From positions 62,001 to 126,000 of the forward strand of contig NZ_BHZE01000005.1 in NCBI RefSeq assembly GCF_003851885.1: 64,000 nucleotides of DNA, in the 5' to 3' direction. The notes below the pieces were generated by a model. It was not told the origin of the DNA. It saw nothing but the letters and a program-made list of their open reading frames with translations, and searched no databases. Within the stretch, counting starts at the first letter, position 1. Each line of letters opens with the position of its first letter. Both the position numbers and the translations under genes were made by a program. Positions 98 through 1,136 of this stretch are shown here, piece by piece. This stretch comes from Thermaurantimonas aggregans (lineage in GTDB: Bacteria; Bacteroidota; Bacteroidia; Flavobacteriales; Schleiferiaceae).

Positions 98-955
98 TTA
101 CACAATCATCTTTTCAATCGGAACCACCAATATACCTTGAGCGCCAAGGGCTTTGAGCTGCTCGATCACTTCCCAGAAGGTGTCTTCTTCCACTACCGAG
201 TGCAGCGAGCTCCAGCCTTCGGTAGCCAAAGGCAGTATGGTAGGGCTTTTCATGCCCGGCAGCACCCGGGCAATTTCGGGTATGCGTTCGTTGGGTGCAT
301 TGAGCAAGATGTATTTGTGGTTTCGCGCCTTGCGCACAGCTTGTAGGCGGAAGACCAGCTTGTCGAGCAATTCAGCCTTTTCACGGCTTAGGTCAGGTCG
401 AGCTACCAGTACGGCCTCAGAGTGCATCACTGTGACTACTTCGCGAAGGCCATTGGTAAGCAATGTGCTGCCGGTGCTAACAAGGTCGCAAATGGCATCC
501 GCCAATCCAATACCCGGTGCAATCTCTACTGAGCCGCTGATTTCGTGAATTTCGGCCGAAATTCCCTGCTCTTTCAGGTAGCGGCTCACAATGCGCGAAT
601 AGCTGGTAGCAATGCGCTTACCATTTAGATCGGCAATGCCACTAAAAGGCTCATTTTTAGGTACTGCGATCGACAGGCGACACTTACCAAAGCCCAGCCG
701 TTCGGCCACTTTGAGATTTTTATCCTTTTCAGCCACCACATTCAGGCCCACAATACCCACATCGGCCACTCCATCGGCCACGTACTGCGGAATGTCGTCG
801 TCGCGCAGCAGGTAGATTTCCAGCGGAAAGTTCGATGCCTCCGTACGCAGCTTGCTGCCGTCGTTTGGGAAGTGAATGCCGGCTTCTCGAAGGAGCTCAG
901 CCGACTTGTCGCTCAGGCGACCCGATTTCTGTAGAGCAATTTTCAATTTGGTCAT
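98..955 (-). CDS. hisG: ATP phosphoribosyltransferase, long regulatory form
   Basis: This enzyme catalyses the first step of histidine synthesis, joining ATP and PRPP to give phosphoribosyl-ATP. The product has 285 residues, the length of the long form with a C-terminal ACT-like domain (about residues 210-285) that binds histidine for feedback inhibition. The family signature around residues 143-170 (EIAPGIGLAD, then STGSTLLTNGL) is intact, as is the N-terminal QKSGRL motif. The frame is open upstream into the terminator hairpin, but homologues begin at the MTKLK methionine chosen here. It lies behind a histidine-rich leader and a Rho-independent hairpin, so attenuation by histidine supply is expected. 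hisD follows after a few bases. Confidence 0.96.
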   Translation of the reverse strand: MTKLKIALQKSGRLSDKSAELLREAGIHFPNDGSKLRTEASNFPLEIYLLRDDDIPQYVADGVADVGIVGLNVVAEKDKNLKVAERLGFGKCRLSIAVPKNEPFSGIADLNGKRIATSYSRIVSRYLKEQGISAEIHEISGSVEIAPGIGLADAICDLVSTGSTLLTNGLREVVTVMHSEAVLVARPDLSREKAELLDKLVFRLQAVRKARNHKYILLNAPNERIPEIARVLPGMKSPTILPLATEGWSSLHSVVEEDTFWEVIEQLKALGAQGILVVPIEKMIV

Positions 956-971
956 ACTTTTCAAGGGATTT

Positions 972-1005
972 AAAAACAAAAAGGGCTTACCGGTTGGCAA
1001 GCCCT
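972..1005 (-). terminator. his operon attenuator terminator
   Basis: On the minus strand a GC-containing stem (arms at 999-1005 and 982-988, seven perfect pairs) is followed by a T-rich run with one G at 972-982. It lies between the leader peptide stop and the hisG start, which is where an attenuator terminator belongs. Its upstream arm is also complementary to leader bases 1063-1070, so it can be disrupted by the alternative pairing. Confidence 0.88.
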
Positions 1006-1123
1006 GAAAATTATACGGATATTATCGTGCTTACTGATAGGGATGATGCACTACACATCCTCGGCTTGCCCGGTGGTGGGAAGCGTGGTGATGATGAAGA
1101 TGGATGTGTACGCGCTGCATCAT
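996..1123 (-). promoter_or_regulatory. his attenuator: leader hairpin and antiterminator pairing
   Basis: Three pairings are visible by eye. (1) The leader's own 5' end, 1116-1123 and 1102-1110, is complementary to 1043-1050 and 1052-1060 (8 + 9 pairs), forming a long hairpin that encloses the His codons. (2) Bases 1063-1070 are perfectly complementary over 8 nt to 996-1003, the upstream arm of the terminator, giving an antiterminator. (3) The terminator itself (982-1005). A ribosome stalled on the His codons would open pairing 1, freeing 1063-1070 to form pairing 2 and block termination. Free translation favours pairing 3. The sequence complementarity is seen directly; the switching is inferred from known his attenuators. 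Confidence 0.85.
1031..1123 (-). CDS. hisL: His operon leader peptide, 30 residues, ten histidines
   Basis: A short frame runs from tandem ATGs at 1121-1123 and 1118-1120 to a TAA at 1031-1033. It encodes 30 residues of which ten are histidine, including a run of four (codons at 1085-1096) and a later pair (1073-1078). It sits about 75 bp upstream of hisG, before the attenuator hairpin. A shortage of charged histidyl-tRNA should stall the ribosome on these codons and permit readthrough into hisG. The peptide itself probably has no other role. The match in size, position and His content is close to enteric hisL, although the sequence is otherwise different. Confidence 0.9.
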   Translation of the reverse strand: MMQRVHIHLHHHHASHHRASRGCVVHHPYQ

Positions 1124-1128
1124 GGCCG

Positions 1129-1136
1129 CAAATATA
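1129..1136 (-). promoter_or_regulatory. -7 promoter element of the his operon
   Basis: On the minus strand TATATTTG matches the Bacteroidota -7 consensus TAnnTTTG exactly. It ends only 5 nt before the first ATG of the leader peptide, so the transcript may start at or within a base or two of that ATG. No convincing -33 TTTG is at the usual 19-nt distance (a TTTTG lies about 15 nt upstream). Confidence 0.55.

Follow-up and report, generated by a model that had tools for sequence, protein, structure and literature searches.

Ribosome-mediated transcription attenuation has long been known from enteric bacteria and is a textbook mechanism. Most documented attenuators of amino-acid operons come from Proteobacteria, Actinobacteria and some Firmicutes. 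For the Bacteroidota, a 2021 study of Flavobacterium psychrophilum found indications that amino-acid operons are attenuated through leader peptides, and noted a structured 5' element upstream of hisG that is conserved in other Flavobacteriaceae genera (PMC9723704). This element shares phylum, gene and kind of proposed mechanism with the locus described here; the main text of that study names it without giving its pairings. The hisS and hisZ leaders of bacilli (Naville and Gautheret 2010, PMC2965389) likewise combine a His-codon leader with a terminator outside the Proteobacteria, but before other genes and in another phylum. The trpL leader of Sinorhizobium meliloti is leaderless, its ORF also lying at the transcript 5' end, but it carries Trp codons, precedes trpE(G) and belongs to an alphaproteobacterium (PMC7298713). 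In a 2021 survey covering the his genes of the superphylum, attenuation comes up for the enteric operon alone and the word "leader" does not occur (PMC8305728). In the open-access literature searched, no experimental work on a his attenuator from the Bacteroidota turned up; Lopatovskaya et al. 2010 (cited in PMC4833913) may hold relevant predictions. The mechanism is classical, and its phylum-wide distribution was not found set out in the literature searched.

We analysed a 64,000-nt stretch of the Thermaurantimonas aggregans genome, hereafter the window, in which the region ahead of hisG is very probably a ribosome-mediated transcription attenuator of the his operon. The elements concerned all lie on the minus strand and are, in the direction of transcription:

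1129..1136 (-), promoter -7 box TATATTTG, a match to the Bacteroidota sigma-A motif TAnnTTTG
1031..1123 (-), his leader peptide ORF MMQRVHIHLHHHHASHHRASRGCVVHHPYQ, 30 codons with 10 His; a His-rich leader is conserved in relatives
1116..1123 (-), outer block, 5' strand AUGAUGCA, holding the leader start codons
1102..1110 (-), protector stem, 5' strand UACACAUCC, overlapping the first His codons
1063..1070 (-), antiterminator strand GGCAAGCC, perfect 8-bp pairing with 1003-996 GGCTTGCC
1052..1060 (-), protector stem, 3' strand GGAUGUGUA, exact 9 bp with 1110-1102
1043..1050 (-), outer block, 3' strand UGCAUCAU, exact 8 bp with 1123-1116
982..1005 (-), intrinsic terminator hairpin AGGGCUUGCC-AACC-GGUAAGCCCU, 10 bp, -17.3 kcal/mol
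972..981 (-), U-tract UUUUGUUUUU, directly 3' of the terminator hairpin
98..955 (-), hisG (ATP phosphoribosyltransferase, long form), with TIGR00070 and TIGR03455 matches

Read along the minus strand, TATATTTG is followed by 5 bases, the leader ORF, a 25-nt spacer, the 10-bp hairpin, UUUUGUUUUU and hisG from 955. The gene hisG is the first of a complete hisGDCBHAFIE operon that runs on the same strand past the left edge of the window, where the surrounding genome sequence continues with hisD, hisC, bifunctional hisB, hisH, hisA, hisF and hisIE. As in the enterobacterial his operon, hisG lies directly downstream of the attenuator and the gene order is hisGDCBHAFIE. The locus also resembles the enterobacterial hisL in having a run of His codons in a short leader ORF and alternative protector, antiterminator and terminator pairings. 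Unlike hisL, it has a Bacteroidota TAnnTTTG promoter, leaves no room for a Shine-Dalgarno sequence ahead of the leader, and places its antiterminator strand within the leader ORF.

The leader ORF, one third of whose codons encode His (10/30), stands alone among the 506 ATG ORFs of 15-60 amino acids in the window in having more than five His residues, and its His-run pattern occurs only once in the 2.67-Mb genome, without a second run. Reckoned from the -7 box alone, in the F. psychrophilum register of -12 to -5 (PMC9723704), transcription would start at about 1124, roughly one base before the leader AUG. No convincing -33 element was found, the nearest TTG, at 1154, being only 15 nt from the -7 box.

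An earlier sequence-only reading of this region had proposed a 30-codon leader with ten His codons before hisG and two pairings between the ends of that leader. Both proposals were borne out: the ORF spans 1123-1031, and its nested blocks pair exactly over 8 and 9 bp, a Watson-Crick total of 17 bp equalled in none of 5,000 dinucleotide shuffles of the leader. In the minimum-energy fold, the outer block takes the register GAUG/GCGC with GUGC/CAUC, slightly off the proposed 8-bp version. The antiterminator segment at 1063-1070 is, as the same reading held, perfectly complementary to the terminator, its partner 1003-996 lying inside the 5' arm of the 1005-982 hairpin; it is not merely free in a loop, however, since an inner hairpin, GCUUCCC/GGGCAAGC, also holds it. 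The range then given for the attenuator, 996-1123, misses the promoter element (1136-1129) at one end and, at the other, the 3' arm of the terminator with the U-tract (991-972). The terminator before the first gene is a strong one with a complete U-tract, and 26 nt separate its end from the hisG start. As a whole, the region 1135-965 has a folding energy of -52.2 kcal/mol (z = -4.67), and none of 200 shuffles folded as well.

To see how these pairings depend on ribosome position, we folded a nascent transcript that ends with the terminator loop, so that the 3' arm is not yet made; the ribosome was represented by a footprint extending 15 nt to each side of the first base in the P site. In the ribosome-free RNA, P is 0.99 for the protector stem and 0.00 for the antiterminator. 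A stall that puts His codon 6, 8, 10, 11, 12 or 13 in the A site raises the antiterminator to P 0.98-1.00, while for a ribosome at His codons 16-17 the protector re-forms and the antiterminator returns to P 0.00; at the stop codon its P is 0.03. Since the antiterminator appears only with a stall at His codons 6-13, six of the ten His codons can act as sensors. The masked folding supports the switch logic already proposed, in which a stall on the His run frees 1063-1070, with the sensors limited to these codons. Once the RNA also contains the terminator 3' arm, the equilibrium favours the terminator in every case (P 0.98-0.99), even with a stalled ribosome, behind which the terminator state is better by 6.2 kcal/mol (-38.0 vs -31.8 kcal/mol). 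Antitermination must therefore be kinetic, the antiterminator having to form first, and we infer that it would win over the terminator in this way.

The observed elements, their alternative pairings and their conservation can be read as follows with regard to start site, ribosome stalling, kinetic competition and histidine response. Transcription would start immediately ahead of the leader AUG. With charged tRNA-His in good supply, the ribosome would reach the end of the leader, and behind it the protector stem 1110-1102:1060-1052 and the inner hairpin would re-form and hold 1070-1063, so that the hairpin 1005-982 would terminate transcription. When histidine is short, the ribosome would stall in His codons 6-13 and cover the 5' side of the protector; the freed 1070-1063 would then pair with 1003-996 before the terminator 3' arm is made, and with the antiterminator formed RNA polymerase would read into hisGDCBHAFIE.

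To place the locus among its relatives, 195 hisG upstream regions were collected from the family and order, from 80 named genome contigs and from a phylum-wide draw. In 165 of the 195 regions, a stretch of eight codons with four or more His lies no further than 450 nt from hisG, compared with 10 of 975 shuffled ones. A conserved His-rich frame in relatives, whose absence the sequence-only reading had named as grounds for giving up its claim, is hence present. A His-rich leader together with a terminator, counted as any hairpin that has a T-rich tail and lies in the leader-hisG interval, occurs in 158/195 regions, by a finder that also admits weaker T tails and with a minority of weak, possibly chance hairpins in the phylum-wide draw. 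The relatives from the window's order show the same leader/antiterminator/terminator layout as the window, and this layout recurs ahead of hisG in most of the Bacteroidota sampled, a phylum for which it is barely described.

The covariation suggested earlier as a check was also found: antiterminator strand and terminator arm coevolve. Each strand fits the terminator arm of its own genome better than those of other genomes (17.6 vs 14.3, z 14.8), a fit matched in 0/20,000 permutations overall and in 0/20,000 within each of two arm types, where shared ancestry somewhat overstates the significance of the permutation counts and the within-type tests hold. Across 140 loci, the antiterminator forms with P 0.91 when a ribosome stalls at the first His codon and P 0.08 when it is at the stop codon; with the 3' part shuffled, the same loci give 0.30 and 0.17. 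In computational terms, then, folding, relatives and coevolution all yield a mutually exclusive antiterminator that depends on ribosome position.

A leader that acts on translation or on Rho access instead of intrinsic termination is improbable here, though the phylum may possess such a terminator-free mode. Members of family f22 and of the f37 group retain a leader rich in His (e.g. VHHAHHGHHHIHVQ) without a convincing intrinsic terminator, the terminator-poor loci being L113, L114, L139 and L143 and L120, L127, L128, L134, L135, L136 and L138, which suggests a different output in these groups, such as Rho or translational control. In the window, by contrast, the terminator is strong, with its full U-tract 26 nt before hisG, and the antiterminator strand targets the terminator arm itself.

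It is hardly credible that the His-rich ORF arose by chance beside an ordinary intrinsic terminator or in a leader that is constitutive. Terminator-like hairpins do arise at random, four having been found against 2.1 expected, and the 8-nt antiterminator match was reached in 25 of 5,000 shuffles; being only moderately significant alone, this match takes its weight from the relatives: in 158 of 195 regions, leader and terminator occupy the corresponding position, and their strands coevolve. A T-box tRNA sensor or metabolite riboswitch in place of a translated leader is just as implausible, even if his genes are under T-boxes in Firmicutes and Actinobacteria (PMC9413887), for the conserved part is a His-coding frame and Rfam gave no relevant match, His_leader included, at gathering thresholds in the 64-kb window, and no His_leader or anything else meaningful at permissive E-values up to 10 in the region 900-1250.

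Within the reading as a ribosome-mediated attenuator, the window follows the Bacteroidota hisG layout while differing in its spacing. The antiterminator strand starts at a median of 46 nt after the leader start in relatives (IQR 43-48), and in the window 50 nt from the second AUG and 53 from the first, with the terminator before hisG. From the first His codon to the start of that strand there are 38 nt in the window vs a median of 30 in relatives. The leader stop usually lies about 10 nt past the start of the antiterminator strand in relatives, so that a terminating ribosome sits on this strand, whereas in the window it lies 37 nt beyond. The protector hairpin of the window would thus take over the blocking role that the terminating ribosome has in most relatives.

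As to the promoter, a TAnnTTTG box lies within 40 nt of the leader start in 102 of the 158 leaders, compared with 2.7% expected by shuffling, and within 10 nt in 52 of them, for which the 5' UTR would be 0-6 nt. Leaderless or very short 5' UTRs make up about 4-6% in two mapped species (PMC7366714; PMC9723704), and the leaderless trpL of S. meliloti (PMC7298713) provides a precedent for a near-leaderless attenuator leader. It is about as likely as not that a single his attenuator is ancestral to much of the Bacteroidota and works on phylum-specific rules, namely no Shine-Dalgarno sequence, a transcript that begins with the leader AUG or a few bases upstream of it, and an antiterminator at the leader stop that is blocked by the terminating ribosome, with the window as a variant with a longer leader and a protector hairpin.

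Conserved across the Bacteroidota and represented by more than 100 natural variants, the his attenuator gives the phylum a defined RNA regulator. It is a ready Rfam candidate, no Rfam family covering it, and offers a test bed for the translation of an attenuator leader without a Shine-Dalgarno sequence.

The terminator arms fall into two types. Most of the window's own order has CGUYUGAG-like arms, whereas the window carries GGCUUGCC, of the type GGCUUACC/GGCUUGCC found in Chitinophagaceae and neighbours. Both types occur within one family (L001, the window, vs L005, L014 and L018). In a HisG tree, the window protein does not group with the main clade of its order; it is placed, with modest support and on long branches, close to sequences from Cyclobacteriaceae and Fulvivirga, and the arm type of the window matches that part of the tree. 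Horizontal transfer of the his operon together with its attenuator is possible on these grounds. In two 600-kb genomes of the same order (L009 and L012), hisG is kept without a His-rich leader, as if attenuation had been lost in these reduced genomes.

Most sampled members of the window's family lack hisG. Prephenate dehydratase, IlvD and homoserine dehydrogenase, sought for sister attenuators, had no match in the window's own genome, which is 99.9% complete; the his operon is therefore one of the few amino-acid pathways kept, and the source organism is likely auxotrophic for several amino acids while having kept, or regained, the ability to make histidine. A simple scan for short leaders rich in Trp, Phe or His came up empty at the two chorismate-binding gene loci and the one HMGL-like gene locus.

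Upstream of the his operon promoter, positions 1467-2768 of the window consist of 3.1 tandem copies of a 418-bp unit with 95% identity and no evident gene. Immediately upstream of the promoter, positions 1200-1330 are G+C-rich with inverted repeats, between A+T-rich flanks.
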